This document shows, piece after piece, positions 2,301 through 52,796 of a stretch of DNA of 64,000 nt. The DNA comes from Larkinella rosea (GTDB taxonomy: Bacteria > Bacteroidota > Bacteroidia > Cytophagales > Spirosomataceae): NCBI RefSeq assembly GCF_003858635.1, contig NZ_RQJO01000010.1, positions 310,001-374,000 of the forward strand. The letters are read 5' to 3'. How positions within the stretch are numbered: the stretch's first letter is position 1; each line of letters opens with the position of its first letter. Position numbers and translations under genes: made by a program. The notes below the pieces were generated by a model. The model did not search any database. It saw only the letters and a list, made by a program, of their open reading frames with translations, and had not been told where the DNA came from.

Positions 2301-2409
2301 ATTCGGTATACGGTTTACCGTTTTCGGTGCGGTTCCCCGCCGGGACTGGCGCATTTGATTAGCGCGTTAATGAGCATGCGTCAACCACCGAAAACCGTAA
2401 ACCGAGAAT
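2301..2409. repeat. Word-type inverted repeat after cobA
   Basis: The left arm (about 2301-2330) and right arm (about 2386-2409) are imperfect reverse complements built from CGGTTTACCGTTTTCGG-type words. The left arm begins about 5 bases after the cobA stop. The same vocabulary (GAAAACCGTA, CCGAA, GAATA) recurs inside the nitrate reductase gene near 7310-7378. Confidence 0.6.
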
Positions 2410-2415
2410 AAAAAA

Positions 2416-2448
2416 GCCGATCCGGTGTGGGGGCACCTTTGGATCGGC
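2416..2448 (-). terminator. GC-rich hairpin with a U-run only on the minus strand
   Basis: GCCGATCC (2416-2423) pairs with GGATCGGC (2441-2448), and GGTG/CACC extend the stem. A run of A precedes it on the plus strand, so it has terminator form only for minus-strand transcription, yet no minus-strand gene lies to its right. The rest of the 2297-2674 gap holds the word repeat and the dyad at 2546; I see no gene in it. Confidence 0.4.
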
Positions 2449-2545
2449 CAAAACGGGTTTGTCTATGTTAAACACAAACGGTTCAAAGAAAATGAAAATA
2501 AAGACGTAAAGCAAATTCTGCCACCTTCACCGCGCGGGCTCGCTT

Positions 2546-2563
2546 ATAGTTGATAGTAACTAT
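2546..2563. promoter_or_regulatory. Dyad ATAGTTG-N4-TAACTAT upstream of the porin/NarK genes
   Basis: This 18-base site differs from the nirB-side site (1263-1280) at one position and has the same ATAG spacer. It lies about 110 bases before the porin start at 2675. The near-identity in front of separate nitrate transcription units supports a shared regulator, whose identity is not shown by the sequence. Confidence 0.6.
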
Positions 2564-2674
2564 GGGTTTGTACGACCTGCCTTCTCAGGTGATTGCCTTT
2601 CAGTTTCCCGTTCCGGGCTCTCCGGATGTTTTTGCACTGGCCGTTTCTTTTTTCTTTCAACCACCATCGATGCC

Positions 2675-4219
2675 ATGAAACTCTACTTCAGGCCATTCGG
2701 ATTCGTATGCCTTTTTCTGACTGTTGTCCACTTCCATCTCTATGCACAGGTGTCGCTGATCGGCCAGCTCCGGACCCGCACCGAACTGCGCGACGGCTAC
2801 GGAAATCTGACACCCAAAAATAGCCGGGCGGCTGCATTTACCTCGCAACGCACCCGGCTGACGTTCGGTTACAAATGGAACCGCGTCAACTTCAACGTCG
2901 CCGTGCAGGATGTGCGGGTGTGGGGTCAGGACGCATCCAGCATCAGCAGCACCGACGGAAACCGCCTGATGGTTCACGAAGCCTGGGCCGAACTGACGCT
3001 CATCAACAGCGCTGATAGTACCCTGAAATTCAAGCCCATCCAGAATTTATCGTTAAAAATCGGACGTCAGGAGCTGGTATACGACGACGTGCGGCTGTTG
3101 GGCAATCTCGACTGGCTGCAACAGGGCCGCCGGTTCGATGCGGCCCTGCTGAAAGCCCAGCACCACGGGTGGGCGCTGGATCTGGGCGTCGGGTTTAACC
3201 AGAATTCGGATGCATTCGGAGCAACCGGCACGGCTTACACGCCCGCCAATGCCCCGACCTCGGCCCTGTCGGACAAAAATGTCACGCTGGCGATTCCGGG
3301 CGGTTTTCTGCCGACAGTGGGAAAAGGGGGCGTTCCGGTGGTGGCCAATGCCGTCAGTACAAATGGGCAGAATCAGCAGTTCAAATCGTTTCAGATGGCG
3401 TATCTGACGCGTAAGTTTGGCGGTCCGGCGTCCGGTCAGGTCAAATTTTCGGCACTGGTCTTTAAAGACGATTTTTCGAAATACCGAATCGACTCGCTGG
3501 GCAGCGCGGCAACAGGTTACGTATATGGCCGACGTTATGACGTTTCGGGCGTCCATTCACGGCTGACTTACGGCGCCATGCTGACGCGGCAGGCTGGTGG
3601 CTCCAGCGACAAAACCGTTCAGGTTCAATGGCAGACTTTCGGGTATCTGCAAAGTGGCAAAGACCGCGACGGGCTGCGCATTCGAAACGCTTATCACTAT
3701 GGCGCGAATGTCACGTTCCAGAAAGGATTGCTGAGTGTGAGCCCGGGTTATGAGGTACTGTCAGGAACAAATGCGGCCACCGCAAAACCGGGAGAAACCG
3801 GGCGATTCGATCCGCTGTATGGCACTCCGCACAAGCATTGGGGATATATGGATTACTTCTACGTCGGCACGGGTTCGCCCGCCGGTGGCTTAAAAGATGC
3901 ATTTCTGAAGTTTAAATACACCGGAAAACGCCTGACGACGGCCCTCGATGTCCATTATTTCGCACTGGCTGCACCGACACTCAACAAAATGCCGGATGCG
4001 GCTACGGGTGCCAGGCTGGAATCGAAACTGGGGCTGGAATACGACTTCACCGCTACCTACAGCCTGAACAAATTCACGATGCTGGAAGCCGGTTACGCCC
4101 TGATGAAAGGCACCAATTCACTGGAATACAGCAAGCAAGGCACCATGAATCAGAAAGACAAGCTGGGAACGTGGGCGTACCTGATGATCAATATCCGGCC
4201 CGATTTTTTTGTCAAATAA
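2675..4219 (+). CDS. Alginate-export-family outer-membrane porin
   Basis: The protein has 514 residues with an N-terminal signal peptide (hydrophobic FVCLFLTVVHFHLY, cleavage likely after YAQ) and then a long alternation of polar and hydrophobic stretches typical of a beta-barrel. Segments such as RTRTELRDGY, SQRTRLTFGY and LKIGRQELVYDDVRLLGNLDW match the Alginate_exp family. The name does not fix the substrate: here it precedes a nitrate transporter by 24 bases, so a role as outer-membrane pore for nitrate is the best inference. It probably shares a transcript with narK and lies downstream of the 2546-2563 dyad. No residue directly shows ion selectivity. Confidence 0.8.
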   Translation: MKLYFRPFGFVCLFLTVVHFHLYAQVSLIGQLRTRTELRDGYGNLTPKNSRAAAFTSQRTRLTFGYKWNRVNFNVAVQDVRVWGQDASSISSTDGNRLMVHEAWAELTLINSADSTLKFKPIQNLSLKIGRQELVYDDVRLLGNLDWLQQGRRFDAALLKAQHHGWALDLGVGFNQNSDAFGATGTAYTPANAPTSALSDKNVTLAIPGGFLPTVGKGGVPVVANAVSTNGQNQQFKSFQMAYLTRKFGGPASGQVKFSALVFKDDFSKYRIDSLGSAATGYVYGRRYDVSGVHSRLTYGAMLTRQAGGSSDKTVQVQWQTFGYLQSGKDRDGLRIRNAYHYGANVTFQKGLLSVSPGYEVLSGTNAATAKPGETGRFDPLYGTPHKHWGYMDYFYVGTGSPAGGLKDAFLKFKYTGKRLTTALDVHYFALAAPTLNKMPDAATGARLESKLGLEYDFTATYSLNKFTMLEAGYALMKGTNSLEYSKQGTMNQKDKLGTWAYLMINIRPDFFVK

Positions 4220-4243
4220 CGCTTACCTGTTAATCAAAAAGCC

Positions 4244-5560
4244 ATGAACTCATTCGCCAATAAACCCCTGGAAACGCTTTCCATCTTCTCGTTCAAAGGC
4301 ATTCAGATGCGGACTTTCCACATCACCTGGATGACATTTTTTGTCTGCTTTTTCGGCTGGTTCGGCCTGGCACCGCTCATGCCCGCCATCCGTGCCGATC
4401 TGGAACTGACCAAACCCGAAGTCGGAAACACCATCATCGCTGCCGTTTCGGCCACCATTTTCGCCCGGCTGGTCGTCGGCCGCCTGTGCGACACCTGGGG
4501 ACCCCGTAAAACCTACACGGCTTTACTCGTTCTGGGTGCGTTTCCGGTCATGCTGGTCGGGCTCGCCCACGATTACACCACCTTTCTGCTGTTCCGTCTG
4601 GCGATTGGCGTCATCGGCGCGTCGTTTGTCATCACGCAGTTTCACACCTCCATGATGTTTGCCCCGAAAATCAAGGGAACCGCCAACGCCGTCGCCGGTG
4701 GCTGGGGAAACCTGGGGGGCGGAATCACCCAACTCGCCATGCCGGTTATTATGGCGACCATCATTGGATTTGGGTACACCAAACCCGAAGCCTGGCGGCT
4801 GGCAATGGTGTTTCCGGGTATTCTGATGCTCATCATGGCATTTGTGTATTTCCGATATACAAAAGATACACCAAACGGTAACTACCGGAACGCCGGACCG
4901 GATGAGATCCAACGCACAACAGTTCAAGGTGAAAAAGTCAATTTCTGGAAAGCCTGCGCCGACATCCGCGTTTGGGCGCTCGCGCTGGCCTACGCCTGTT
5001 GCTTCGGAATGGAAATCACCTTCGACGGCGTGGCATCCCTCTACTTCTTCGACAATTTCGATATGAAAGAAACCGAAGCCGGTTTTTGGGCCATGCTGTT
5101 TGGTTTCATGAACCTATTTGCCCGGGCGCTGGGCGGTATTGTGGCCGACAAAGTGGGAAGTAAATACGGTCTGCGCGGCAAAGGCATTCTGCTGGCCGGA
5201 ATGCTTTCTCTGGAAGGCTGTGGCATTATGCTTTTTGCCAACGCCGGTAACTTACCGATGGCTATTCTTTCGATGATCGTCTTTGCGCTGTTTCTGAAAA
5301 TGGCCAACGGTGGCACCTACGCTATTGTTCCGTTTGTCAACCCGAAAGCCGTCGGAGTCATTTCGGGCGTTGTCGGCGCGGGCGGTAACATTGGCGGCAT
5401 GCTGATGGGCTTTCTCTTCAAGTCACAATCCATCAGCTACGGACAGGCATTTCTGTACATCGGCGGTATCGTCGCGGCCACCGGACTGCTCCTGTTCCTG
5501 GTCAATTTTGGAAAAACCGCCGTCGTTAAAACTGCCGAAACGGAGTTGCAAACCGCTTAA
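4244..5560 (+). CDS. narK: Nitrate/nitrite MFS transporter, NarK/NrtP type
   Basis: This 438-residue inner-membrane protein has about 12 hydrophobic segments and belongs to the nitrate-nitrite porter branch of the major facilitator superfamily. Visible marks are the FFGWFGLAPLMPAIRADL opening, the RLVVGRLCDTWGPRKTYT loop after helix 2, GGWGNLGGGITQLAMP in helix 5 and GVVGAGGNIGGMLMGF in the second half; the glycine-rich pair is the nitrate signature. It imports nitrate for the reductase encoded next door. Start codons at residue 1 and residue 22 (MRTFHITWM) are both plausible. A word-type inverted repeat begins directly after the stop codon. Confidence 0.93.
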   Translation: MNSFANKPLETLSIFSFKGIQMRTFHITWMTFFVCFFGWFGLAPLMPAIRADLELTKPEVGNTIIAAVSATIFARLVVGRLCDTWGPRKTYTALLVLGAFPVMLVGLAHDYTTFLLFRLAIGVIGASFVITQFHTSMMFAPKIKGTANAVAGGWGNLGGGITQLAMPVIMATIIGFGYTKPEAWRLAMVFPGILMLIMAFVYFRYTKDTPNGNYRNAGPDEIQRTTVQGEKVNFWKACADIRVWALALAYACCFGMEITFDGVASLYFFDNFDMKETEAGFWAMLFGFMNLFARALGGIVADKVGSKYGLRGKGILLAGMLSLEGCGIMLFANAGNLPMAILSMIVFALFLKMANGGTYAIVPFVNPKAVGVISGVVGAGGNIGGMLMGFLFKSQSISYGQAFLYIGGIVAATGLLLFLVNFGKTAVVKTAETELQTA

Positions 5561-5650
5561 AAGGAGGAAATGATTAAAGGAAGAAGGAAAAAAAGAATTC
5601 GACCAATTTATTTCCCTTCCTGCTTTCATCCGTTCCTCCATTAATTCCTT
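5561..5650. repeat. Word-type inverted repeat between narK and the nitrate reductase gene
   Basis: A purine-rich left arm (about 5561-5595, GGAGGAAATGATTAAAGG words) is matched imperfectly by a pyrimidine-rich right arm (about 5606-5650). It fills nearly the whole gap and starts at the base after the narK stop. The left arm could pass for a Shine-Dalgarno sequence but is too far from the next start. Confidence 0.55.
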
Positions 5651-5656
5651 CAAATC

Positions 5657-8600: not shown

Positions 8601-9256
8601 TTTGTAACCGGGGCGTGGTGGTCAACGACTACCTGCAAACGTCTGATCCCGACATTTTTGCGGCCGGTGAAGTAGCGCAATGGAACGGACAGATGTGGGG
8701 CATTACCCTGGCGGCCGAACAACAGGCCGAAGTGGCGGCCCGCTTCATCGCCGGGGATATTTCGCAGCCTTATCGGGGCAGTTTATCCATCGGTATCCTG
8801 AAAATGGAAGGATTACACCTGTGCAGCATGGGCTTAACGGAAGTTCCATCGAATCAAGGGTCCGATTACGAGGAAATCGTTTTTATCGACAAGGCAAAGC
8901 GGTATTATAAAAAATGCATCGTTCACGGCGACAAGCTGGTGGGTGCCATTCTGGTGGGGGATAAAAACGAATTTGCGGAATTCCGCGAGTTGATTGCCAA
9001 AGGCACCGAACTCTCCGAAAAACGCCTTCAGCTCCTGCGTGCCAGCCAGAAAGTTGACCCGATGGAAGGCAAACTGGTTTGCTCCTGCAACAGCGTTGGT
9101 CAGGGAAATCTGGAACGGGCCATCTCAGCCGGTTGCACCGATTTTCAGCAATTGTGTCAAAAAACCGGCGCCGGAACCGGTTGCGGTTCGTGCCGCCCGG
9201 AAGTGCGGAGTATTTTGGAGAAAATGAGTGAAGCTATGGTAGTTAATGAACAATGA
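5657..9256 (+). CDS. nasA: Assimilatory nitrate reductase fused to FAD/NAD(P)H and [2Fe-2S] modules
   Basis: The 1199-residue protein reduces nitrate to nitrite in the cytoplasm. Residues 7-42 carry the [4Fe-4S] ligands C7-x2-C10-x3-C14 and C42; C136 in RLCMSS is the likely molybdenum ligand; TGQPNAMGGRETGG is typical of bis-MGD NasA enzymes. The molybdopterin-dinucleotide-binding domain covers about 610-730 (TTGRIRDQWHTMTKTGR). A pyridine-nucleotide oxidoreductase follows, with GAGSAG near 738 for FAD and GCGLLG near 880 for NAD(P)H. A BFD-like [2Fe-2S] domain ends the chain (CSC near 1140, later CGSC). Carrying its own reductase suggests it takes electrons straight from NAD(P)H. Residues about 547-575 are low-complexity, with a repeated ENRIP motif, and derive from an intergenic-type repeat. 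The last residues, VVNEQ, and the stop are encoded in another repeat arm. Confidence 0.93.
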   Translation: MTHQTTCCYCGVGCGIVVNQEPNGRLTVEGDKQHPSNRGMLCSKGMNLHYTVMDQSDRLLYPQMRFNRSMPLQRVSWDAALERTAAVFKTFIQKYGPDSVAFYVSGQCLTEEYYLVNKLIKGFIGSNNIDTNSRLCMSSAVVGYKLSLGEDSVPVCYDDIEEADVFLVQGANPAWCHPILWRRIEAHKTANPHVKIICVDPRRTDTARSSDLHLPIRPGTDIVLNHAIGRLLIENGHIDHSFIVDHTDGFLAYRELVMQRSIDEAAELCGIDSEAIQTAANWIGRSKGFLSLWTMGLNQSVIGVNKNLSLINLHLITGRIGTPGNGPFSLTGQPNAMGGRETGGLANILPAHRDVMNAAHRAEVEAFWNSPVKIAAKPGLTATEMFEALADDRSGDASLKAIWIINTNPLVSMPDVNTAEKALKNARFVVVQDISNRADTVAFADVVLPAAAWLEKEGTMTNAERRIAYLPKVIDGPGETLPDSEILWRFAQKMGFGDAFKYTNCSEVYQEYAQLTAGTNVDVTGVTYELLRKNRTIQWPFQQHDKPITNNEYRIANSENRIPKTENRIPETGTKRLFTDHRFYTANQRAQIHAVPDGNTSEPTDEDFPLVLTTGRIRDQWHTMTKTGRVAKLGQHIPQPFLQIHPDDANVRGIEEGQLVVVQSRRGEVRVKAQLTDDVRPGLCFLPMHWGKILTNNQVRANNLTNSLVDPRSKEPDFKFSAVEVLPYQKPVEKIIIIGAGSAGLGFINAYRSLTNQDEIHVFSQEFYPFYNRVLLPDYISGAQSWEQLVKLREEQFEENRIVVHKGVGIAHIDRQAKVVIDTNGVEHPYDKMLIGTGSRAFMPKGVPRLPGIFNMRSRLDADSLLPFLTQTDPHAVIVGCGLLGLELAASLRQIGVRVTMVHRSGRVMERQLDPLASELLYLELRDRGIDIYFNEEVQTFAGTSRLEGVQLKSGRKLDCQVVVMAIGTEPNIELARSAGLVCNRGVVVNDYLQTSDPDIFAAGEVAQWNGQMWGITLAAEQQAEVAARFIAGDISQPYRGSLSIGILKMEGLHLCSMGLTEVPSNQGSDYEEIVFIDKAKRYYKKCIVHGDKLVGAILVGDKNEFAEFRELIAKGTELSEKRLQLLRASQKVDPMEGKLVCSCNSVGQGNLERAISAGCTDFQQLCQKTGAGTGCGSCRPEVRSILEKMSEAMVVNEQ
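7299..7378 (+). repeat. Word-type repeat read in frame inside the nitrate reductase gene
   Basis: GAATA, GCGAA, GAAAACCGTAT and CCCGAA words recur here and encode a polar stretch with repeated N/S-ENRIP units. The wording resembles the right arm of the intergenic repeat at 2386-2409. It lies between the catalytic domains and the dinucleotide-binding domain, at a point that should be a surface linker. The reading frame stays open through it. Confidence 0.65.
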
Positions 9257-9334
9257 ATAATTAACAATGAAATGTCTGGGATGTATTTGGCCCTGTTTAT
9301 GGACTTAATTATTCATTGTTCATTATTCATTTCT
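9243..9334. repeat. Word-type inverted repeat at the end of the nitrate reductase gene
   Basis: The left arm (about 9243-9275; AATGAACAATGAATAATTAAC) pairs with the right arm (about 9306-9334; TTAATTATTCATTGTTCATT). The TGA stop of the reductase gene lies within the left arm, so the last codons (V-N-E-Q) come from the repeat. Confidence 0.7.
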
Positions 9335-9341
9335 AAAGCTT

Positions 9342-36277: not shown

Positions 36278-36377
36278 ACGTACCCACGGACTTTAGTCCG
36301 TGTTTTTGGTAACAATTCTGTTGTTTTAAGACAGAAACACGGACTAAACGGGTCCGCCCGCCGGTCCTTGGGTACGT
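36278..36377. repeat. Palindromic REP/BIME-like element, copy A
   Basis: The left arm (36278-36305) carries CACGGAC-TTTA-GTCCGTG preceded by ACGTACC. The right arm (about 36336-36377) has the reverse form but is interrupted by a GC-rich stretch of about 20 bases before TTGGGTACGT. The stop codon and last residues (RTQGPAGGPV) of the kinase gene at 36344 lie inside the right arm. Confidence 0.75.
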
Positions 36378-38125
36378 TCGTCCGTTGCTGCGTTCGGCAA
36401 CCGGAAATAAAATGCCGCGCCCGGTTCAATGTCGTCTTTCAAGCCAATCTCTCCGCCCATCGACTGGATAAATTCCTTGGAGATTGCCAGCCCCAGCCCC
36501 GTTCCGCTGACCTGCCCATTCTGACCGGGTGCACGGAAATACCGGTCGAACACTTTGGCCCGGTGTTCGGGACGCAAACCGGGGCCGAAATCACGAACCG
36601 TAAACTCGACTTCATTGCCCAGTTGCCGGGCTGAAATGCGAATTTCATTATCTTCCGGACTGTGCCGAATGGCATTCGACAACAGATTGACCAACACCCA
36701 GGTTGCTTTGTCGGGATCGGCTTTGATGGCGGGAAGGTTCGTTAGATGCGAAATCTCAAACCGGATATTTCGCTGACTGGCAGCCACTTCCAGCGCACGG
36801 GTAGCGTACTGAATCAGTTCGCCCGGATCGACGGACTTGATCGTCAACTGGATCTGCCCCGATTCGACCTGCGCCATATTCAGGAGTTCACCCGTAATGT
36901 TGAGAAGCCGGTCGGCGTCGTTCCGGACGTGTTCGACCAGTTGTTTCTGCTCCTCGTTGAGGTCGCCAACCCGTTGGTCGTCGAGCAGTTTGAGGCTCAT
37001 TTTGATGGATGAGATGGGCGTTTTCAGCTCGTGGGAAACCGTGGCAATGAAATTGGTTTTGGCCAGGTCGCGCTCCTGATAGGCGGTTATATTTTCCAGA
37101 ACAATCACCCATCCGGCGGCAATCGGCTGGTCTTCGCCGGTTCGCGTCAGCGTCACTTCGTGGATCTGGCGGTTGAAATAGCTTTCTTTTCCTTCGTCAA
37201 AAATTTTCAGAAACGTTTGATCAACAGCGGTTTCGGACGGTTTTTCCATCAGATTCAGAATCAGCGTCCGCAGCAAATCATTGGTCAGGGCCACATCCGG
37301 TGCGTACCGGCCCACCACATCAGCCTCCTGAACGCCCAGCAACCGGCAGGCAACGGGATTGGCAAACCGGATTTTCTTCTTCTCATCCAACCCGATAATT
37401 CCGTTCTCCATCAACTGAATCAGCGTATCGATGCGTTTTTTCTCGAACAGCACATCGGCCAGTTTGGTGTGTTCGTATTCATCGAGTTTGTGCGCCATCG
37501 AGTTGAATGCGCGCGCCAGCTCGCCAAATTCGTCGTTCGAGCGAAAATGCAGTCGTTCTTCAAAATTCCGGCTGGCCACTTCCTGAATTCCTCGGGTCAG
37601 TTCGCGCAGCGGATTGGCGATGTAACCGGGAAAATTGACGATGAACGAAAAGAGAATCAGAAAGCAGAACGTCCCCATCACAGCCAGCCAGATTAACGCA
37701 TCTTTAGCGGTTTGCTCGGCAACGGTATTTTTTCGGAACATCGCCTGCTGGTTGATCGCGCCAAGTTGAAGCAGGTTTTGCTGAATCCGGGCGACGGTCA
37801 ACGAGTCATTGCGGTTTTCTGATTTCAAGCGTTCGAAATCCACCCGTAATGCGTCGGCCAGTTCCTTTTCGCCTTCTTCGGTCAAATTGGTTTCCTGCCC
37901 GCGCAGGGCGGTTTCGAACGTTTTCAGCGCGTTCGGGTCGGTATTGCGCGTCAGCAGCGACTTTTGCATATTGCCCACAAACTGCAACGACGTATAATTG
38001 TCCTTCAGAATCGCCCGGGCATCATTCGAAAGCTGTTTTAAGTAATACATCGCCAAACCGCCTACCAGCAGCATGACGGCAAACAGAAAGCCCAGCGCGA
38101 GCGATATTTTCACTTTTATTGTCAT
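36344..38125 (-). CDS. HAMP-PAS sensor histidine kinase (kinase half of a split KdpD)
   Basis: The 593-residue membrane kinase has a helix at about 7-29, a periplasmic helical bundle, a second helix near 145-165, HAMP (about 170-225), a PAS domain (about 235-345), HisKA with SHELKTPISSIKMSL (histidine near 365), and HATPase_c with NLLSNAIRHS, DFGPGLRPEH and GTGLGLAISK. Its ATG overlaps the TGA of the KdpD-type gene by 4 bases, so both are co-translated. Together they supply the domains of a KdpD. No KdpE-type regulator is in the window. The last dozen residues (RTQGPAGGPV) come from repeat copy A. Confidence 0.9.
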   Translation of the reverse strand: MTIKVKISLALGFLFAVMLLVGGLAMYYLKQLSNDARAILKDNYTSLQFVGNMQKSLLTRNTDPNALKTFETALRGQETNLTEEGEKELADALRVDFERLKSENRNDSLTVARIQQNLLQLGAINQQAMFRKNTVAEQTAKDALIWLAVMGTFCFLILFSFIVNFPGYIANPLRELTRGIQEVASRNFEERLHFRSNDEFGELARAFNSMAHKLDEYEHTKLADVLFEKKRIDTLIQLMENGIIGLDEKKKIRFANPVACRLLGVQEADVVGRYAPDVALTNDLLRTLILNLMEKPSETAVDQTFLKIFDEGKESYFNRQIHEVTLTRTGEDQPIAAGWVIVLENITAYQERDLAKTNFIATVSHELKTPISSIKMSLKLLDDQRVGDLNEEQKQLVEHVRNDADRLLNITGELLNMAQVESGQIQLTIKSVDPGELIQYATRALEVAASQRNIRFEISHLTNLPAIKADPDKATWVLVNLLSNAIRHSPEDNEIRISARQLGNEVEFTVRDFGPGLRPEHRAKVFDRYFRAPGQNGQVSGTGLGLAISKEFIQSMGGEIGLKDDIEPGAAFYFRLPNAATDERTQGPAGGPV

Positions 38126-39249: not shown

Positions 39250-39294
39250 TTCTTTGAGAGGTGAATGACGATTATTAATTGACGATTGACCGCC

Positions 39295-39332
39295 GACCAT
39301 CGACCGCTGACCATGGTCAATGGTCGATGGTC
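39295..39332. repeat. Word-type inverted repeat between porin and kdpD genes
   Basis: GACCATCGACCGCTGACC (39295-39312) and GGTCAATGGTCGATGGTC (39315-39332) pair with two or three mismatches around a 2-base loop. Related GAC-words extend to about 39270. The element ends 8 bases from the porin stop codon. Confidence 0.65.
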
Positions 39333-39340
39333 GATCTTTC

Positions 39341-40477
39341 TCAAAAACGTACTGCCATTGAGGTTGTGATTGCCTGATTGGTTCGGTGGGCAGTGGCGGA
39401 GGTGTTTTCGGAGAAAACCGCATCCTTGCTGCTAAAAATCCGGTATTCAATTCGCCAGACCGCCGAAACGTCGGACCGATTCGCCAAAACTGCATAGTCG
39501 TAATTGACTGAATAGCCCCAGGTTTTGAAACCGTTGGGATGTTCCGCCGTTATGGTATTGATAATCACCCCGTTCGAGTCATTATAATACTCGACGCGCC
39601 CGGCAACGTAGCTTTTTGGACTGGTAGCATACCGGGCAATGATGACCGGCGAATACCAAACGTATCTCTTCCGTATTCCCTCATCCATGAGCGGTTTTCG
39701 ATCAGAGCCGATGTCGAAACCCAGCGTTACGCCCAACTTACCGGTCGGATTGAGGATGGCGTAGAAATTATTGAAAAACCGGTTCTGCTTCAACGAATCC
39801 GGTCGGTCGGAACCCAGAAAGGAGCTCCAGTTCAGTGTCACTTTCGAATTCGGTTTGAACTGCACCTGCGTACTGAAAGCGGGTTTGGTATTGCTCGCCA
39901 GCCGATTGATACGTTGCCAGCCGTTCAAAACCGATCCTAAAACCGTCCATTTCCCATTCGGACTCGTGTAGGTTAGCTTGGCTCCCGCCAGGTAATACGG
40001 CGAATTCTCGGCTAACAGGCTGCGGGTCAGGGTCCAGCAATCTTTGGACACCGCACTTTCAAAACCGATGTGGGACGTAAAAATACCGGCATCCAGCCAC
40101 AGATCGCGCTGTTTACTTAGTTTTAAACCGGCATTGGCTTCGTAGATATTCCGCAGCAACGGCTGCTCGGCAGCATAATTGTACTGGGCGTACGTCCCGA
40201 CCTGAATGGCCAGATTCGCGCGCACCCGCTCGGCGGCATAAGCCGCCTTGAGAAACGCCAGATTCACATTCACCTCCCGATTTCGCTTGTGGTTATACAG
40301 AAAACCGGGCCGCTCCTGCGCCCGGGGCTGGCTCAGATCCTGGACGTAATAGATTTCGGCGTAACCGGAAAATGTTAAAGTCGAGGTGGCAGTCGTTGTA
40401 CTATCTTTTTGCGCCAATGAATCTTTATTCCATAGAATCAGTGGTAAAATCGTGAATAGGATCAACGTTTTTTTCAT
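39341..40477 (-). CDS. OmpL-like outer-membrane beta-barrel porin of the kdp operon
   Basis: I set the start at 40477 (MKKTLILFTILPLIL, a good signal peptide ending near SLAQ). The longer upstream frame only reads through repeat copy B. The 378-residue product has the beta-barrel porin-2 look: FSGYAEIYYVQDLSQPR, NHKRNREVNVNLAFLKAAY, and a terminal aromatic SMAVRF for the assembly machinery. It lies between kdpC and the KdpD gene, suggesting an outer-membrane route for potassium or related ions; that is inference. Confidence 0.82.
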   Translation of the reverse strand: MKKTLILFTILPLILWNKDSLAQKDSTTTATSTLTFSGYAEIYYVQDLSQPRAQERPGFLYNHKRNREVNVNLAFLKAAYAAERVRANLAIQVGTYAQYNYAAEQPLLRNIYEANAGLKLSKQRDLWLDAGIFTSHIGFESAVSKDCWTLTRSLLAENSPYYLAGAKLTYTSPNGKWTVLGSVLNGWQRINRLASNTKPAFSTQVQFKPNSKVTLNWSSFLGSDRPDSLKQNRFFNNFYAILNPTGKLGVTLGFDIGSDRKPLMDEGIRKRYVWYSPVIIARYATSPKSYVAGRVEYYNDSNGVIINTITAEHPNGFKTWGYSVNYDYAVLANRSDVSAVWRIEYRIFSSKDAVFSENTSATAHRTNQAITTSMAVRF

Positions 40478-40524
40478 GGTTGTAATCGGTTCAATAAAGA
40501 GCCGGAATTTTGTTGTACTAATTA

Positions 40525-40609
40525 TGTACCCACGGACTTCAGTCCGTGCCCTCTGGTTTACTCTTTGGAAAATGATAAACAAAACACGGACTAAAGTCCG
40601 TGGGTACGT
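40525..40609. repeat. Palindromic REP/BIME-like element, copy B
   Basis: The left arm (40525-40548) and right arm (40585-40609) are complementary with one or two mismatches around about 36 bases. Each arm is itself a small hairpin, CACGGAC-TTTA/TTCA-GTCCGTG, flanked by GTAC. The kdpC stop codon (TAG, 40591-40593) lies in the right arm, whose codons give the tail R-T-H-G-L. Confidence 0.85.
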
Positions 40610-41166
40610 AATTCATCTAATCTGACATTCAGGCGAAGCACATTTACTTTTGCAGGACCAAAAAGCCCAAACAAAGGACCTTCTGTCTGGCTATCAACCA
40701 ATTGATTCAGTTTTTCTCCGGAAATGCCGCACACTTTGGCGATCCGGGCGATCTGGATTTTAGCCGCTGCGGGCGATAAATCGGGGTCGAGACCGGAGCC
40801 CGAAGCCGTCACCAGTTCAGCGGGAATAGCCGCTTTCTGAACACTTGGATTATGAACCAGAAAGGTATCGATCCGCGCCTGTACGGTTTTCAGGTAATCC
40901 GGATTGCCCGGACCTTTGTTCGAACCCGCCGACCCGGCCGCGTTGTAATCCACCGCCGACGGGCGGCTGTTGAAATACCGGTCTTCCGTAAACGACTGAC
41001 CAATAAGCGAGTAACCAACTACTTTTCCATTCACCAAAACCGGTTCCCCTTTGCCGCCACCGGGTGCAAACCGGGCGATTCCGGCGACCAGCATGGGATA
41101 AATAACCGCTAAAAGAACCAGCATGATAAGCGTCAATCGAATGGCCGGAGCGATGTGATTTTTCAT
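40591..41166 (-). CDS. kdpC: Potassium-transporting ATPase subunit C
   Basis: The 191-residue single-span membrane protein stabilises the KdpFABC pump. It has an N-terminal helix (LTLIMLVLLAVIYPMLVAGIARF), the GSANLG-like region seen here as GSAGSNKGPGNPDYL, PAELVTASGSGLDPDLSPAAAKIQIARIAKV, and the ending VNVLRLNVRLDEL. The family usually stops about there; the last residues RTHGL and the stop come from repeat copy B. It is 12 bases after kdpB. Confidence 0.96.
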   Translation of the reverse strand: MKNHIAPAIRLTLIMLVLLAVIYPMLVAGIARFAPGGGKGEPVLVNGKVVGYSLIGQSFTEDRYFNSRPSAVDYNAAGSAGSNKGPGNPDYLKTVQARIDTFLVHNPSVQKAAIPAELVTASGSGLDPDLSPAAAKIQIARIAKVCGISGEKLNQLVDSQTEGPLFGLFGPAKVNVLRLNVRLDELRTHGL

Positions 41167-43260: not shown

Positions 43261-43266
43261 AAAAAA

Positions 43267-45653: not shown

Positions 45654-45663
45654 AGTGGTTGTA

Positions 45664-45744: not shown

Positions 45745-45755
45745 GGGCGGGAGAT

Positions 45756-46062: not shown

Positions 46063-46128
46063 TCGGAACGCGGATGCAACGGATTTTCGCAGATAAATCT
46101 GTTTTGATCCGTTGCATCCGCGTTCCGA
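46063..46128. repeat. Perfect 22-base inverted repeat downstream of the mutarotase gene
   Basis: TCGGAACGCGGATGCAACGG... (46063-46084) is perfectly matched by 46107-46128, and the centre contains a second small palindrome CAGAT-AA-ATCTG. It starts 10 bases after the stop codon at 46138 (minus strand). The wording differs from the other repeat families in the window. The remainder of 45843-46137 has nothing else I can name. Confidence 0.75.
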
Positions 46129-46137
46129 CCCTAAACC

Positions 46138-46479
46138 CTATTTCTCAAACTGGAAAATCTGATCCATTAAAACCCATTTTTCACCTTCTTTCGCCCAGGG
46201 CAGCGGTTCCTGAAATTTCCACATCAGTTCCTCCCACTTCTGCACATGCGGATTGACGGCATCCAGCGCGGCTTTTTTCCCGAAGGTAAAATTGTCATCG
46301 GTTTCCAGAATCATGAACATGCGGTTTCCGGTGCGGTAAATCTGCAGATCCTGAATACCGGCCGCCAGGTCATTCGCCCGAACCTCCGGCCAGCCGCTGC
46401 CTTTGGCGTGCCACTGTTCGTATTCGGCGATCAGTTCGGGGTCATCTTTCAGGTCCAGGGCAAGGCAAAATCGTTGCAT
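46138..46479 (-). CDS. L-rhamnose-mutarotase-family protein
   Basis: This 113-residue protein matches the RhaM-like fold: RFCLALDLKDDPELIAEYEQWH at the start, then GIQDLQIYRTGNRMFMILET and VQKWEELMWKFQEPLP. Members interconvert sugar anomers. As last gene of the sugar operon it probably prepares the anomer used by the dehydrogenases. Whether the sugar is L-rhamnose, L-fucose or another is not shown. Confidence 0.85.
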   Translation of the reverse strand: MQRFCLALDLKDDPELIAEYEQWHAKGSGWPEVRANDLAAGIQDLQIYRTGNRMFMILETDDNFTFGKKAALDAVNPHVQKWEELMWKFQEPLPWAKEGEKWVLMDQIFQFEK

Positions 46480-46503
46480 AATTTTTTATGGTTTTGGGTG
46501 TCT

Positions 46504-46601
46504 ACCACGTACCCACGAACTTTAGTCCGTGAGATCTTGGAACTTTATAGTAGCTTTTATAATACTCAGATCTCACGGACTAAAGTTCGTGGGTACGTGG
46601 T
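46504..46601. repeat. Palindromic REP/BIME-like element, copy C
   Basis: The arms at 46504-46537 and 46568-46601 are perfect 34-base reverse complements around 30 bases. Each arm contains a GAAC/GGAC-TTTA-GTCC hairpin next to GTACC. The stop codon of the isomerase gene (TAG, 46580-46582) lies in the right arm, and the tail R-T-H-E-L is encoded by it. Confidence 0.88.
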
Positions 46602-47407
46602 AAATACTTCTTAAACGACTCGATCGTTTGCTTCGCTGCCTGATCCGGATCGGGCCAGGGGAAGGCTTCAGCGGAAATATAACCCTGATAATCAATATCT
46701 TGTAAGGCGGTTGCAATGGCCGTCATTTCGGTATGCCCCAGGCCAATCGGTCGGCGGTTGCTGTCGGCGAAATGGACGTGTCCGATGTACGAACCGGCAG
46801 ATCGGATGCTGTCGGCCAGCGACGTTTCTTCGATGTTCATGTGGAACAGATCGGCCAGCAGTTTGACATGCTGATTATCCAGCGATTTCAGCAAGTTGAC
46901 GCCATCTTCCAGCCGGTTGATCAGGTTGGTTTCGTAGCGGTTCAGGGGTTCGTAGATCAACTTGACGCCGTTATCTTCCGCCTGTTTTCCCAGAATGTTC
47001 AACCCTTCGGCCAGCCATTCCAGCGCCTGTGCGCGTTCGACGCCCGGCACGGCATTGCCCTGCATCGAGCCAATAATCGCCGGTGCGCCAAAACCGGCAC
47101 CGAACGCAATCATGTCCGAAATGAACGCGACGGCTTTTGATCGAACGGCTGGATCGGGATCGGTTAGGGTTAGACCCTGAAGCACTTTACCGGCTCCGGT
47201 GCCGACGGCGGCTATGTTCACACCAAACTGATTCCCCAAAGCCGCCAGCCGATCGGGCGCGACCGCATCCGCCGAAGCCGTAAACAGTTCAACGGCGTCG
47301 AATCCGAGGTCGGCGGCTTTGGCCATGCCCGTTTCCAGATCATGCCAGTAAATCCAGGGGCCGGTTTTGATTTCGGGCACTAATGCAATGGTTACAGCGG
47401 ATTTCAT
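46580..47407 (-). CDS. Sugar isomerase/epimerase, TIM-barrel (hydroxypyruvate-isomerase-like)
   Basis: The 275-residue cytoplasmic protein belongs to the AP-endonuclease-2 TIM-barrel superfamily. Visible marks are DLGFDAVELFT, the metal-binding region LIYEPLNRYETNLINR, LLADLFHMNIEE, and GHVHFADSNRRPIGLGH; the glutamates, aspartate and histidines there are the likely ligands. Its start overlaps the stop of the dehydrogenase gene by 4 bases. The last residues, PRTHEL, and the stop are from repeat copy C. Exact substrate unknown. Confidence 0.87.
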   Translation of the reverse strand: MKSAVTIALVPEIKTGPWIYWHDLETGMAKAADLGFDAVELFTASADAVAPDRLAALGNQFGVNIAAVGTGAGKVLQGLTLTDPDPAVRSKAVAFISDMIAFGAGFGAPAIIGSMQGNAVPGVERAQALEWLAEGLNILGKQAEDNGVKLIYEPLNRYETNLINRLEDGVNLLKSLDNQHVKLLADLFHMNIEETSLADSIRSAGSYIGHVHFADSNRRPIGLGHTEMTAIATALQDIDYQGYISAEAFPWPDPDQAAKQTIESFKKYLPRTHEL

Positions 47408-48444: not shown

Positions 48445-48445
48445 G

Positions 48446-49393
48446 TTAGAAAGTTCGTTTCGGAATATTGTTTTCCGGTTTTCCCTCGAACCACAACTGG
48501 TTTTTGACCGGAGCGACCAACGCTCCAATCCGTTGCAGCAATTCGTCGGGGATGGTAAGCTGAAGCGCCCGGACATTCTGCTCAAGCTGCTTTTGGGTGT
48601 TCATCCCAATAATCGTTGTGGCAATAACCGGATGATCGACGGCGAACCGCAAAGCAACATCGCTCAGTTCCAAACCGAATTCACGACACAGGGAAAGCAA
48701 TCTAGGCTGCAGATCTTTCACGGCCTGCGGAGAGCTTTGCCAGACCGGAATCGGGGCGTCCGACAGAATCCGCTGCATCAGCGGTGCGGCATTGAGCAAT
48801 CCGAACCCTTTTTCGAGCGACAACGGCACCAGCTCTTCGTTAATTTCGTCGGCCAGCAATGTGTAGTGCCCCCACGACAAAACCGTATCGACCTCAACCT
48901 CGCGGGCCACTTTCGCCAGATACCGTACGGGCAAACCCGAAAAACCGACGTAGCGCGCCTTGCCCATTTCTTTAATTTTCAGAGCCGCCGGAATGGCTTC
49001 GTTAATAACCTGATCATGATCGCCAAACTCGATGTCGTGCACCGTCAGCAGATCAACATAATCGGTTTGCAGGCGTCCGAGCGATTCGTCGATGCTGCGC
49101 ATGATCCGGTCGTACGAAAAATCGAAAACGCCATTGCCATAACGTCCGCCTTTCGTTGCCAGAAAGACCGCGTTTCGTTTGGTTTTCAGGGCATTACCCA
49201 GCCGGGTTTCGGCCAGGGTGTCGCCGTAAAACGGGGCGACATCGAAGAAATTGATGCCGTGATCGATGGCGGCATGAACCGCCCGGGTGCCTTCTTCCTC
49301 ATTGGTTTCGTCAAATACATTGCCCAGGGGCGACGCTCCGAAACTCAGGAGCGAGACATTCATGTTGGTTTTACCCAATTTGCGATATTCCAT
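48446..49393 (-). CDS. Aldo/keto reductase, L-galactose/L-fucose dehydrogenase type
   Basis: The 315-residue cytoplasmic enzyme starts at 49393 (MEYRKLGKTNMNVSLLSFGASPLGNVF), which is close to the N-terminus of plant L-galactose dehydrogenase. The catalytic tetrad is visible: D in FFDVAPFY, Y in the same block, K in FLATKGG, H in LTVHDIEF. A TACCTTTG promoter element at 49420-49427 lies inside the only longer reading, which favours this start. It is the first gene of the four-gene sugar operon. Confidence 0.88.
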   Translation of the reverse strand: MEYRKLGKTNMNVSLLSFGASPLGNVFDETNEEEGTRAVHAAIDHGINFFDVAPFYGDTLAETRLGNALKTKRNAVFLATKGGRYGNGVFDFSYDRIMRSIDESLGRLQTDYVDLLTVHDIEFGDHDQVINEAIPAALKIKEMGKARYVGFSGLPVRYLAKVAREVEVDTVLSWGHYTLLADEINEELVPLSLEKGFGLLNAAPLMQRILSDAPIPVWQSSPQAVKDLQPRLLSLCREFGLELSDVALRFAVDHPVIATTIIGMNTQKQLEQNVRALQLTIPDELLQRIGALVAPVKNQLWFEGKPENNIPKRTF

Positions 49394-49419
49394 TTCTTCT
49401 GGTCGAAAACCGTATGATC

Positions 49420-49427
49420 CAAAGGTA
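49420..49427 (-). promoter_or_regulatory. -7 element TACCTTTG of the sugar operon
   Basis: On the minus strand TACCTTTG fits TAnnTTTG. Transcription would begin near 49414, about 20 bases before the chosen start at 49393. The -33 element is not clear. Confidence 0.5.
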
Positions 49428-49533
49428 TGCATACGGCTAGATAATTGTCTAAGTAAGTTCGGCGAGCGGTTTTTCTACTTTGACCATTTGGCAACAAACC
49501 GCTTATTCCGCCGTTTAAACCGGATAAGGACCG

Positions 49534-49555
49534 ATTTTAACCAATTGATTAAACT
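49534..49555. promoter_or_regulatory. TetR operator upstream of the tetR gene
   Basis: The 22 bases centred on CAA|TTG match the perfect palindrome at 50260-50281 at 17 of 22 positions. It lies just upstream of the promoter at 49570-49600. A shared site before the regulator and before the efflux operon points to autoregulation. Confidence 0.6.
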
Positions 49556-49569
49556 TTTTGGTTAATTTC

Positions 49570-49600
49570 TTGTTTGTTAGTTTTAGGTATTCTACTTTTG
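49570..49600 (+). promoter_or_regulatory. Promoter of the tetR gene
   Basis: TTG (49570-49572), a 20-base spacer and TACTTTTG (49593-49600) match the Bacteroidota consensus. The start would be near 49606, 15 bases before the ATG at 49621. This rules against the longer reading that begins at 49558. Confidence 0.6.
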
Positions 49601-49620
49601 GACCGTTAATCAACACCACT

Positions 49621-50244
49621 ATGAATTGTCTCCTCGTATCCACCGAAGAAAAAATCAAGGAAGCGGCCAAGGCGGTTTTCCTTGAAAAAGGCTTTGATGG
49701 GACCACCACGCGCGATATTGCCAAGGCGGCCGGGATCAATAGTGCCCTGATGAACTATTATTTTCGTAGTAAAGAGAAGCTCTTTCAATTTATTTTCAAT
49801 GACCTGTGTTCGTTCATGTTCCAGGGAATGCTCGACGTTGTTAATCAGCCGATTAGTCTGCGCGAAAAAATTTCGAGACTGATTGATCACCAGTTTCAGA
49901 TGATGATGCAGAACCCGAATCTGACGATTTTCATCATGAATGAATTGCACCGGAATCCGGAGCGACTTTACGCCACTGTTGGTATGGCCAAGAAGATACC
50001 GGAATCCATTTTTCACCAGCAGATCGACGAGGCCATTGCGCAGGGAACGATTACCCACATCAATTCACAGCACATCATGACCATGATCGTTGCCAATATC
50101 CAGTTTCTTTTCGTCTCCAAACCGATGACCATGCTGGCGAATGGGCTGGATGAAGCCGGTTTTAAAGCCTTTGCCACCCAACACATCGAATACGTCAAGG
50201 AAATGATCTGCGATTATCTTTTTAAACCGGAAACCGCCACCTGA
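49621..50244 (+). CDS. TetR/AcrR-family repressor
   Basis: The 207-residue protein has the N-terminal helix-turn-helix EKIKEAAKAVFLEKGFDGTTTRDIAKAAGINSALMNYYFRSKEKLF (about 9-55) in TetR form, and a helical ligand-binding half (about 70-205) that ends HIEYVKEMICDYLFKPE. It precedes the TolC-adaptor-RND genes by 80 bases on the same strand. A perfect 22-base palindrome lies in that gap and a related site sits upstream of this gene, so it most likely represses both. Inducer unknown. Confidence 0.92.
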   Translation: MNCLLVSTEEKIKEAAKAVFLEKGFDGTTTRDIAKAAGINSALMNYYFRSKEKLFQFIFNDLCSFMFQGMLDVVNQPISLREKISRLIDHQFQMMMQNPNLTIFIMNELHRNPERLYATVGMAKKIPESIFHQQIDEAIAQGTITHINSQHIMTMIVANIQFLFVSKPMTMLANGLDEAGFKAFATQHIEYVKEMICDYLFKPETAT

Positions 50245-50259
50245 TATTTTTTTACCCTT

Positions 50260-50281
50260 GATTTAATCAATTGATTAAATC
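50260..50281. promoter_or_regulatory. Perfect 22-base palindrome before the efflux operon
   Basis: GATTTAATCAA|TTGATTAAATC is a perfect palindrome 45 bases before the TolC start. A second dyad, CAAAC-N9-GTTTG (50281-50299), adjoins it. This is the best candidate operator for the TetR protein encoded upstream. Confidence 0.75.
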
Positions 50282-50325
50282 AAACAATTTAATCGTTTGA
50301 AAATCCAATTTATACAACCGCACGC

Positions 50326-51645
50326 ATGAAACGCACTCATTGGTATCTCTTCATGATACTGACACTTACGCACACACTCGCTCAGGCTCAGGAGCTTACC
50401 CTGGAACAACTCCTCAATAAAGCGCTTGCCAGCAACCTGAATGTTCAATCGGCAAAATTTGACGAAACCAAAACAGAGGCTCGAATTGCCGAAGTAAAAG
50501 CCGGCGCCCGGCCATCCGTTAATCTCTCAGGCGACTACAAACGGTATTTGAAAATTCCCGGACAGGTTGTGCCAGCTTCAGCTTTCGGTGGCCCTGAAGG
50601 CTCGTATCAGGTGCTGGCATTTGGACTTCCGTACAATTTTTCGACATCGGTACAGGCTTCGCAGGCACTCTACAATCCATCGGTGATGATTGGGTTAAAA
50701 GCCGCCAAAACCAGTCGCGAACTGTCGGCGCTGCAAACCCGGCAGGTGAAAGAAGACGTTGCCTACAATGTTTCGGCCACGTATTACAACCTTCAGACGA
50801 CGGCCCAGCAAATGGCTTTCCTGCGCCGGAACATCGTCTCGTCCAACCGGCTGATTCAGATTACCGATTTGCTGCGGCAAAACCAACTGGCGAAAGGCGT
50901 GGATGTGGACCGGCTGCGTCTGAGCAAAACCGCATCCGAAACGCAGATCGAGTCGTTGCAGGCGACGTATAACCAACTCCTGAATCTGCTGAAATTCCTG
51001 AGCGGCATTCCGCAAAGTGAGTCGCTACAGGTGCAAACCGTCATCGACGAAACCATTCCCGTGGTTTCCTTCGACGCTCCGGCCATTAACCGTACGGATC
51101 TGCTGGTGCTCGACCGCCAGAAAGCACTTAACGGTCTTGATTTACAGAATATTAAAGCCGGATTTCTACCTACGCTGTCAGCTTACGGTGTTGCGAACAG
51201 CACGGTTTTTGCCATCGGCGGGGAGCAGTCGTACCTCAAAAATGTGCCGGGTTACTGGGTGGGTCTGCAACTGAACTGGAACGTGTTCGACGGTTTGGCC
51301 CGGAAAGCCAAAGTGACTCAGAAACGACTCGACAATCAGAAACTCGATACGCAGCTTCAGCAAACCCGCGAGTCGATCACGATGGACATCACGAATGCGC
51401 AAAACAAACTGCTCGTCGAACAGCGGAACCTGGCGACCAACCGCGCCCAGGTGGCACTGGCCGAAAAAATTTACACCCAAACCCAACTCCAGTTTAAAGA
51501 AGGCACCGTCGACGTCAGTGAGGTCATCCAGACGGAAGACGAATTACGCAAAGCGCAAAACAATTACCTCAACACCCTGGTGACGTTCCGCACCGCCGAA
51601 CTCGACTGGAAAAAAGCCACCGGAAATCTCGTCATCAATCAATAA
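50326..51645 (+). CDS. TolC-family outer-membrane efflux protein
   Basis: The 439-residue protein has a signal peptide (ending near LAQAQ) and two long coiled-coil repeats characteristic of TolC: LTLEQLLNKALASNLNVQSAK at the start, and the later ARKAKVTQKRLDNQKLDTQLQQ and LALAEKIYTQTQLQFKEGTVDVSEV-type helices. It forms the outer-membrane exit duct for the RND pump encoded by the next two genes. Confidence 0.93.
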   Translation: MKRTHWYLFMILTLTHTLAQAQELTLEQLLNKALASNLNVQSAKFDETKTEARIAEVKAGARPSVNLSGDYKRYLKIPGQVVPASAFGGPEGSYQVLAFGLPYNFSTSVQASQALYNPSVMIGLKAAKTSRELSALQTRQVKEDVAYNVSATYYNLQTTAQQMAFLRRNIVSSNRLIQITDLLRQNQLAKGVDVDRLRLSKTASETQIESLQATYNQLLNLLKFLSGIPQSESLQVQTVIDETIPVVSFDAPAINRTDLLVLDRQKALNGLDLQNIKAGFLPTLSAYGVANSTVFAIGGEQSYLKNVPGYWVGLQLNWNVFDGLARKAKVTQKRLDNQKLDTQLQQTRESITMDITNAQNKLLVEQRNLATNRAQVALAEKIYTQTQLQFKEGTVDVSEVIQTEDELRKAQNNYLNTLVTFRTAELDWKKATGNLVINQ

Positions 51646-51662
51646 CACAACCTGTAAACACC

Positions 51663-52712
51663 ATGAAACGCATTGTTACAGTACTCGCCATTATTTCCAC
51701 GCTGGGCCTGACCGCCTGGACCCTGCTCGACAACAAAAAAGCTGTTGAAGCCAAAGTGTACAAACCGGATGCCGACCAGAAAGTGGGCGTGCGTACGGCC
51801 ACGGCTGAATTCCGGAATCTCTCGGAAGAAACCCAGTTTTTGGGTTCGTTCTCACCCAACCGCGAAATCGAAATCCGGCCCCAGGCAGGTGGTCAGATTC
51901 TTCAGTTACCGTTTGAAGAAGGCCAATTTGTGGGCACCAACCACCTGATTGCCAAGCTGGACGACGAACAACTGCGGTATCAGGTCGAAGCCCTGCAAGT
52001 GACGCTGGAAGGCTACCAGAATGACGTTCGGCGGTATGACGCGCTGGTGAAAGGCGACGCTACCCCCGCCGTCAATCTCGAACGTGCCCAGTTGAACATT
52101 CGGGCCACTGAAGCGCAGATCAAACAGCTCAAAAAACAGATTGCCAACACCACCGTAACCGCGCCTTTTTCGGGAATTGTAACTCAAAAAATGGTTGAAA
52201 AGGGGTCGGTCGTCTCGGTTGGGTCGCCAATTGCCAAAATCACGGATATTTCCTCGCTGAAACTGGTCGTCGATGTGCCGGAAAAAGCCATCAATCAGTT
52301 CCGCGTCGGCCAGTCGCTTCCCATCCAGACGGAGGTTTATCCCAATATCCGCTTTACGGGCCGCATTTCGATGATCGGCGCTGAAGGGGATGCCGCCCAC
52401 AATTATCCGGTTCAGATTACGGTAAACAACTCCACCGCCAACCCGCTGAAAGCCGGGATGTACGGTTCCATTGCCAATCTGAACACCCTGAAAACGAAAA
52501 CATTAGCGGTTCCGCGCCAGGCCATTTTGGGATCAGCCAAGCAGCCGCAACTCTACGTGGTTGAAAACGGTAAAGCCATCCTCAAACCGGTCGAAATCGG
52601 CGCAACGACCAACCAGTACTACGAAATCACGAAAGGGCTGAACCCCGGTGATCAGGTGGTCACCAGCGGCCAGATCAACCTCCAGAACGGCACCTTAGTT
52701 ACTGCGCAATGA
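51663..52712 (+). CDS. RND efflux periplasmic adaptor (membrane fusion protein)
   Basis: The 349-residue protein has a membrane-anchoring leader, a lipoyl-like domain (EIEIRPQAGGQILQLPFEEGQFV, and TVTAPFSGIVTQKMVEKGSVVSVGSP), a helical hairpin (about 95-155), and beta-barrel and membrane-proximal domains (LAVPRQAILGSAKQPQLYVVENGKA). It links the pump to TolC. It is 18 bases after the TolC gene. A word-type inverted repeat begins 8 bases after its stop. Confidence 0.94.
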   Translation: MKRIVTVLAIISTLGLTAWTLLDNKKAVEAKVYKPDADQKVGVRTATAEFRNLSEETQFLGSFSPNREIEIRPQAGGQILQLPFEEGQFVGTNHLIAKLDDEQLRYQVEALQVTLEGYQNDVRRYDALVKGDATPAVNLERAQLNIRATEAQIKQLKKQIANTTVTAPFSGIVTQKMVEKGSVVSVGSPIAKITDISSLKLVVDVPEKAINQFRVGQSLPIQTEVYPNIRFTGRISMIGAEGDAAHNYPVQITVNNSTANPLKAGMYGSIANLNTLKTKTLAVPRQAILGSAKQPQLYVVENGKAILKPVEIGATTNQYYEITKGLNPGDQVVTSGQINLQNGTLVTAQ

Positions 52713-52720
52713 GATCCAAT

Positions 52721-52796
52721 GAGTGAATGATAGAATGAGTGAATAAAAACTCGATTCTGCACCATTTCTCTTATTCACTCATTCTATCATTCACTC
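52721..52796. repeat. Word-type inverted repeat between adaptor and RND pump genes
   Basis: The arms 52721-52746 and 52771-52796 are perfect 26-base reverse complements around 24 bases. They are made of GAGTGAATGATAGAATGAGT words. The element lies 8 bases after the adaptor stop and 14 bases before the RND start at 52811. Confidence 0.85.

Follow-up and report, generated by a model that had tools for sequence, protein, structure and literature searches.

The window analysed here is a stretch of 64,000 nucleotides from Larkinella rosea (positions 310001-374000 of contig NZ_RQJO01000010.1, contig C14 below, in a genome of 8.17 Mb) that carries nine hairpins just past or across the stop codons of genes. 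We give an even chance to the reading that these hairpins represent two kinds of DNA-level element, which share the 3' ends of genes, are tolerated there and do not protect mRNA. Family A, to which three of the nine belong, consists of two inverted palindromes with a GTAC foot, putatively doublets of repetitive extragenic palindromic (REP) sequences forming hairpins (REPINs), presumably moved by a tyrosine transposase of the REP-associated type (RAYT) encoded elsewhere in the genome, whereas the remaining families are hairpins for which no transposase was found, the arms of many consisting of quasi-tandem words of 7-9 bases. Both kinds would settle past or across stop codons because inserts there would spare promoters and ribosome sites. 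At these 3' ends, hairpins are gained and lost as whole units, and their arms would be kept complementary by a DNA-level process such as template switching between the arms during replication together with repeat slippage. Refilling of a site by another family could occur perhaps through nested insertion, or some 3' ends may tolerate inserts better than others.

Position of the hairpins relative to genes

The main sample comprised the window and three 400-kb pieces of the same genome (1.264 Mb) and was searched for hairpins with a score of at least 15; genes were called by our own script and not taken from an annotation, and every distance depends on these calls. The search returned 139 hairpins, and none in a randomised control, which was a single copy resampled from the dinucleotide frequencies and not an exact shuffle. 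Once 13 of the 139 had been removed as terminator-like (loop of at most 10 bases and a U-run), the remaining 126 comprised 82 in same-strand gaps, 37 in convergent gaps, 5 in divergent gaps and 2 at an edge, and none of the 126 lay wholly within a called gene; two intragenic hairpins are present in L. terrae. The density was 0.68 hairpins per kb of same-strand gap, 1.90 per kb of convergent gap and 0.11 per kb of divergent gap, the convergent gaps being the densest because their 37 hairpins fall within 19.5 kb out of a total of 183.6 kb between genes. The rates for each gene 3' end in L. rosea were 0.133 in same-strand and 0.134 in convergent gaps (0.124 and 0.128, with 5 hairpins in 149 divergent gaps, in a slightly larger set from the same genome); about one gene in eight has such a hairpin, and some 87% of 3' ends have none. 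Moreover, proximity to the stop is not merely a product of short gaps, since, where a same-strand gap leaves 100 bases or more of free room, the stop is closer than the next start for 28 of 34 hairpins (p = 2e-4).

The original prediction, which was made from the window, held that the hairpins stand only between genes on the same strand and that convergent and divergent gaps of the window have none. Our gene calls place six such gaps in the window, three of each kind, and the convergent ones are indeed free of hairpins; however, numbers this small are hardly informative, and beyond the window the convergent gaps are the densest. Restriction to same-strand gaps was rejected on the 37 of 126 hairpins in convergent gaps, the window pattern being a small-sample artefact, whereas the peak at stops, the near emptiness of divergent gaps and the absence from genes were borne out by the 1.264-Mb scan. 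An insertion mechanism aimed at stop codons, which had also been put forward, gained no such backing, as the position could equally reflect selective survival of inserts that leave promoters and ribosome sites intact. A bias towards 3' ends has been published for REPs (PMC3733652), for stem-loops across 40 genomes (PMC1590033) and for inverted repeats across 118,019 genomes (PMC13155455), according to the accessible parts of these papers.

All nine window hairpins are real: a gapped stem search gave them 16-35 Watson-Crick pairs apiece, and each stem outscored every one of 200 dinucleotide shuffles of the region it lies in. The margin was clear for seven and narrow for 5560 (15.0, with the shuffles reaching 13.0) and 36292 (14.5, with 13.5). 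The score-15 finder omits these two and picks up others at 50258 and 63687, and by its count the hairpin density of the window is ordinary, with 9 per 64 kb against 130 in the other 1.2 Mb. A search of Rfam at the gathering score gave no match within the window. The nine represent about seven families, so that the earlier count of at least three was correct and too low; besides family A these are GTTTACGG/GGCTGACGC, GGAGGAA-rich, AATGAAC, TTGACCA, GGAACGCGGAT and TGAGTGAATGA. The offsets from the upstream gene end, given below, agree overall with the claim that each hairpin begins within 10 bases of a stop codon or covers it, although this is loose for 2311.

2311-2404: hairpin of the GTTTACGG...GGCTGACGC family, arms 2311-2329 and 2386-2404, 14 bases past the stop of a methylase gene (1541-2296); offset +14
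5560-5642: imperfect purine-rich GGAGGAA hairpin at the stop of an MFS gene (4244-5560); offset -1; under the score cut-off
9244-9325: AATGAAC heptad hairpin spanning the stop of a molybdopterin oxidoreductase gene that ends at 9256; offset -13
36292-36348: degenerate family A element (putative REPIN) spanning the stop of a histidine kinase gene (36344-38125, minus strand), whose tail is ...DERTQGPAGGPV; offset -5; under the score cut-off
39294-39333: TTGACCA hairpin, 7 bases past the stop of a bbp2 porin gene (39341-40477, minus strand); offset +7
40520-40613: family A element (putative REPIN) providing the final codons (RTHGL) and the stop of kdpC (40591-41166, minus strand); offset -23
46063-46128: GGAACGCGGATGCAACGGAT hairpin, 9 bases past the stop of a rhaM-like gene (46138-46479, minus strand); offset +9
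46503-46602: family A element (putative REPIN) with 35 perfect pairs, providing the C-terminal ...LPRTHEL and the stop of the gene 46580-47407 (minus strand); offset -23
52720-52797: TGAGTGAATGATAGA hairpin with 27 perfect pairs, 7 bases past the HlyD stop (51663-52712) and ahead of an AcrB-type gene (52811-55957); offset +7

Eight congeners were available for comparison, among them L. arboricola (G001), L. knui (G004), L. punicea (G005), Larkinella sp. C7 (G007) and L. terrae (G008). In L. terrae the gap of the 5560 hairpin holds a GAGTTAA hairpin, and the sites of 9244 and 39294 hold the same family and the TTGACC family, respectively; the site of 39294 carries AGACAAGAG-type stems in G002, G003, G005 and G007. 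At the site of 46503, L. knui has an 11-base gap and L. punicea a GTTTACGG hairpin. Elsewhere in the window, positions 50258-50283 form a 26-base perfect palindrome, TTGATTTAATCAATTGATTAAATCAA, past a stop at 50244; it has a near copy in L. terrae and is possibly a regulator site.

Family A and the word-built hairpins

Clustering was performed on 1.364 Mb of the L. rosea genome with a hairpin rule slightly unlike that of the 1.264-Mb scan, and it placed 82 of 126 elements in 14 multi-copy clusters and left 44 as singletons. The largest cluster is family A, ACGTACCCACGGACTTTAGTCCGTG, with 17 elements, a few of them loosely related; a single element of the family gave 90 matches in the genome, and elements usually match in both orientations. 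The view that the genome has no RAYT, which came from a single Y1_Tnp match over the cut-off, was rejected after flanks and further searches gave RAYT-type open reading frames (ORFs). At locus L268, family A palindromes lie on both sides of such an ORF (1450-2172, with the motifs NHVH and YTLQNP), which is bracketed by hairpins at 1369-1467 and 2117-2222 and scores 76 bits against NF047646, under the 80-bit cut-off. The other two RAYT-type ORFs of L. rosea adjoin other palindromes (GTACGCCGGAGC at L002 and GTAGAGACGCGAT at L270), and all three are under the NCBIfam RAYT cut-off. Family A thus has two features that define a REPIN, two inverted palindromes in many copies and a RAYT gene bracketed by the same palindrome; however, its foot is GTAC and not GTAG or CGTC, so it is at most atypical, and it is as atypical REPINs that the elements at 36292, 40520 and 46503 are classed from their sequence. 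The likeness to REPs and bacterial interspersed mosaic elements (BIMEs) suggested for the hairpins at large holds, then, for three of the nine, which match the palindrome bracketing a RAYT-type gene, and fails as a blanket reading.

Among nine Larkinella, kdpC ends in RTHGL or RTRGL, encoded by family A sequence, in three (G000, L. terrae and L. knui), and in the other six it encodes a 187-residue protein ending in K; in L. punicea, which has the 187-residue form, a short family A-like palindrome lies directly past the stop. The bbp2-type porin gene of the window (39341-40477) sits between kdpC and kdpD, and the other eight Larkinella loci have an ORF of similar length after kdpC. RAYT-like ORFs with in-frame GTAGAGACGCGAT palindromes occur in two Larkinella (L270, 611-1252, and L274, 554-1213, both on the minus strand), and GRDAINRVST is present twice in each of the two proteins.

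Many hairpins outside family A have arms made of quasi-tandem words of 7-9 bases. A period of 7 is found in 72 non-A arms of L. rosea (z 9.0 at lag 7 and 6.3 at lag 14), in 36 arms of L. terrae (z 10.9, 8.5 and 5.8 at lags 7, 14 and 21) and in 24 arms of a Mucilaginibacter group (z 6.2 at lag 7), while control gaps give z at lag 7 of 2.0 (divergent) and 0.9 (hairpin-free same-strand). The survey of loci by group left out 16 of 80, and its group names are loose. The class rule that separates word hairpins from the rest places the window hairpins 2311 and 46063 in the class OTHER and not in WORD. Threefold AATGAAY has 41 overlapping matches in L. rosea; in a draw of 148 genomes across the phylum, with no other Larkinella among them, 4 have any match, L. 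rosea included. Stop codons fall in a larger number of 5'-arm frames than in shuffled arms (1.56 vs 1.25, standard deviation 0.06, 88 arms), an excess that may be a survival effect. Loci of the Mucilaginibacter group among L173-L213 have period-7 AGATTTG/AGATATG hairpins and also GTCATTGCGAGG...GAAGCAATC hairpins, both in same-strand and convergent gaps.

The search for a transposase that could move the word hairpins used PF01797, NF047646 and a RAYT protein as queries. Ten loci with RAYT or IS200 genes were inspected (L001, L002 and L267-L274), and none had a word family beside the transposase, the palindromes there being of other kinds, and no cognate RAYT was seen within the flanks inspected, which were those of 12 of the 34 RAYT-model matches; since, in addition, the foot is mostly absent, the word hairpins are not classed as REPs. 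It seems unlikely, though conceivable, that all the elements are REPs or REPINs of undetected or lost RAYTs and that the word structure arose by secondary decay. Palindromes do adjoin the three RAYT-type ORFs of L. rosea and two more in L. terrae (L271 and L274), family A behaves as a RAYT-moved REPIN, atypical structures have been reported beside Bacteroidetes RAYTs (in the accessible part of PMC6006769), and the flanks inspected cover about a third of the RAYT-model matches. Nevertheless, besides the ten loci free of word families, word arms are less alike between copies than REPIN arms (median nearest-neighbour arm score 0.63, n = 48, vs 0.86, n = 19), and GTAC or GTAG stands within the first bases of only 3 of the 48 word arms of L. 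rosea.

Stem upkeep and exchange of families

Among base pairs that changed on both sides between orthologues of the same family, 35 of 43 were complementary again, against one third expected (p 1e-10, with pairs treated as independent and a few convergent and terminator-like ones included). If the sense-strand RNA were selected, G-U mismatches would be expected to outnumber A-C mismatches. However, 157 same-strand elements from seven Larkinella genomes contain 53 G-U and 54 A-C mismatches (95% interval of the G-U share 0.40-0.59), divided by class into 4 and 9 for REPINs, 36 and 29 for word hairpins and 13 and 16 for others; the counts are 13 and 17 in 68 convergent elements and 6 and 2 in 10 divergent ones. 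In the same sequences, 103 terminator hairpins have 59 G-U and 15 A-C mismatches, and the half of these that a U-tract does not favour, T-G vs C-A, still gives 20 vs 4 (p 0.0015). RNA-level upkeep of the stems was consequently rejected, as the test that detects a sense-strand G-U excess in terminators finds none here. Identity with terminators was rejected as well, for a U-tract is no commoner after the stem than before it: at least 5 T in 8 bases follow the stem in 4 of 67 word hairpins, 0 of 22 REPINs and 8 of 68 others, and precede it in 7 of 67, 1 of 22 and 8 of 68, respectively, a null result that was favoured by the prior removal of short-loop hairpins with a U-run.

The proposal that the hairpins act as RNA, protecting mRNA 3' ends or partly terminating transcription within operons, was the role first suggested for them and is now very unlikely. 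Nearly all the hairpins do stand at 3' ends, many in short same-strand gaps, and the accessible part of PMC3733652 discusses comparable roles for REPs, along with the frequency of GT pairs in their stems, but neither the mismatches, convergent ones included, nor the flanking T content fit it. Arms that change together with no G-U bias point instead to upkeep at the DNA level. Imperfect palindromes are known to undergo template switching in DNA, as described in the accessible parts of PMC7202029 and PMC3820800, and the same process may act on the Larkinella stems.

Species were compared at same-strand and convergent gaps with conserved gene order, 135 with L. terrae and 147 with L. knui. Gaps with a hairpin are a median of 53 bases longer than orthologues without one (25 comparisons, in 18 of which the excess is more than 20 bases; the median element has 84), whereas 154 gap pairs that are empty in both species differ by a median of 2 bases; thus, hairpins are gained or lost as whole units. 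Moreover, an occupied gap carries another family in the relative more often than by chance. With L. terrae, 13 of the 135 gaps hold the same family in both species and 9 hold different families, against 2.95 expected (p = 3e-4); with L. knui, 10 of the 147 are the same, 3 ambiguous and 9 different, against 3.45 expected (p = 0.0015), and stratification for residual gap length does not remove the excess (Mantel-Haenszel p 5e-4 and 1e-3). Clear switches are seen at C10 304005, with ACCCCACCCC in L. rosea and TTGACGATTGACC in L. terrae, and at C13 299700, where GAGTTAA words in L. rosea face ATGAATGATGAACG in L. terrae and L. knui. At C11 173245, a GCGGAG hairpin in L. rosea faces a AGACAAGAG-like stretch in L. 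terrae, with the same stop and the same downstream sequence; the L. terrae stem is weak (z 1.7) and was scored as empty. At C13:507366 of L. rosea, a GGTTTACGGTGGCTGACGCA hairpin arm carries a nested family A palindrome at its inner end, one case that supports refilling.

Several points weigh against the reading of two tolerated, DNA-level kinds of element, or against parts of it. The two species comparisons overlap, with 90 L. rosea gaps in common, so that the 18 switch cases amount to 15 separate slots. Three of the L. terrae cases pair hairpins whose positions in the gap differ by more than 15 bases, one of these cases (C14 140477, the kdpC gap) having also kept a degenerate family A element, while two L. 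knui cases look terminator-like and one is purine-rich in both species; stricter rows that drop these six weaken the count to 6 against 2.14 expected with L. terrae (p 0.008) and 6 against 2.61 with L. knui (p 0.025). One-sided changes between species give 32 A-C and 11 G-U on the sense strand, for which no explanation was found, and no template switching was observed on the Larkinella stems. Taking a single arm from each family lowers the lag-7 signal to z 2.4; the signal is weaker in 28 arms of L. knui (z 3.1 at lag 7 and 3.3 at lag 8) and gives way to weak peaks at 8-12 in 34 arms of a Spirosoma group. The equality of same-strand and convergent rates per 3' end is not general, as they are 0.166 vs 0.109 in L. 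terrae and 0.097 vs 0.148 in L. knui. Finally, transposases that are now lost could have spread the word hairpins, and the refilling of slots could mean that a hairpin is needed there.

This last possibility can be extended to the proposal that some 3'-end slots need a hairpin of any sequence for a function at the DNA level, for example insulation or the relief of supercoiling, and that families swap for this reason. It would account for co-occupancy by different families at 2.6-3 times chance (2.3-2.8 times on the stricter rows) and for arms that remain paired while changing. Nevertheless, it appears improbable, since the great majority of 3' ends do without such a hairpin, gaps gain and lose hairpins as units, and site-to-site differences in tolerance would yield the same excess. 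Elements that are tolerated at 3' ends, and not needed there, are the reading preferred here. Its boldest extension, a transposase-less class of heptad-word hairpins standing almost only at 3' ends, with arms matched by template switching and families exchanged while the slot stays filled, so that the hairpin would be inherited and its sequence would not, is tentative and, taken as a whole, rather doubtful.

Comparison with known systems

The distinction matters for three reasons. It separates two 3'-end populations that are easily lumped, palindromes moved by a RAYT and hairpins built of words, for which no mover is known; the strand test of G-U vs A-C mismatches is a cheap probe of whether RNA or DNA keeps the stems of any hairpin population; and gaps that retain a hairpin while switching its sequence make the choice between needed and merely tolerated elements testable. 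The 3'-end position is already published for REPs, and the new part is the class of word-built, family-switching hairpins, nothing similar to which was found in the literature searched.

Family A resembles the REP/REPIN and RAYT (TnpA-REP) system, as presented in the accessible parts of PMC3733652 and PMC6006769, in its short inverted palindromes, the bracketed RAYT-type gene, the position at 3' ends and the stop codon supplied by the element, and differs from it in having a GTAC foot where GTAG or CGTC is described. The word hairpins are like REPs in size and location, but the flanks inspected contain no RAYT and the foot is mostly lacking. The stem-loops and inverted repeats of PMC1590033 and PMC13155455 likewise favour convergent gaps and the 3' side of genes; these are attributed mainly to terminators and have short spacers, and the accessible parts of both papers describe neither heptad words nor a change of family per site. 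Intrinsic terminators likewise place a hairpin past the stop codon, whereas the Larkinella hairpins have longer loops, no U-tract and no G-U excess. Cyanobacterial short tandemly repeated repetitive (STRR) heptanucleotide sequences and small dispersed repeats also offer seven-base units and small intergenic elements, the STRR sequences being direct repeats. Intergenic seven-base units are likewise found in the TAACTGA heptamer repeats of marine Beggiatoaceae; however, according to the accessible part of PMC4679880, these are direct repeats of one sequence, whereas in Larkinella runs of differing heptads are inverted into hairpins.

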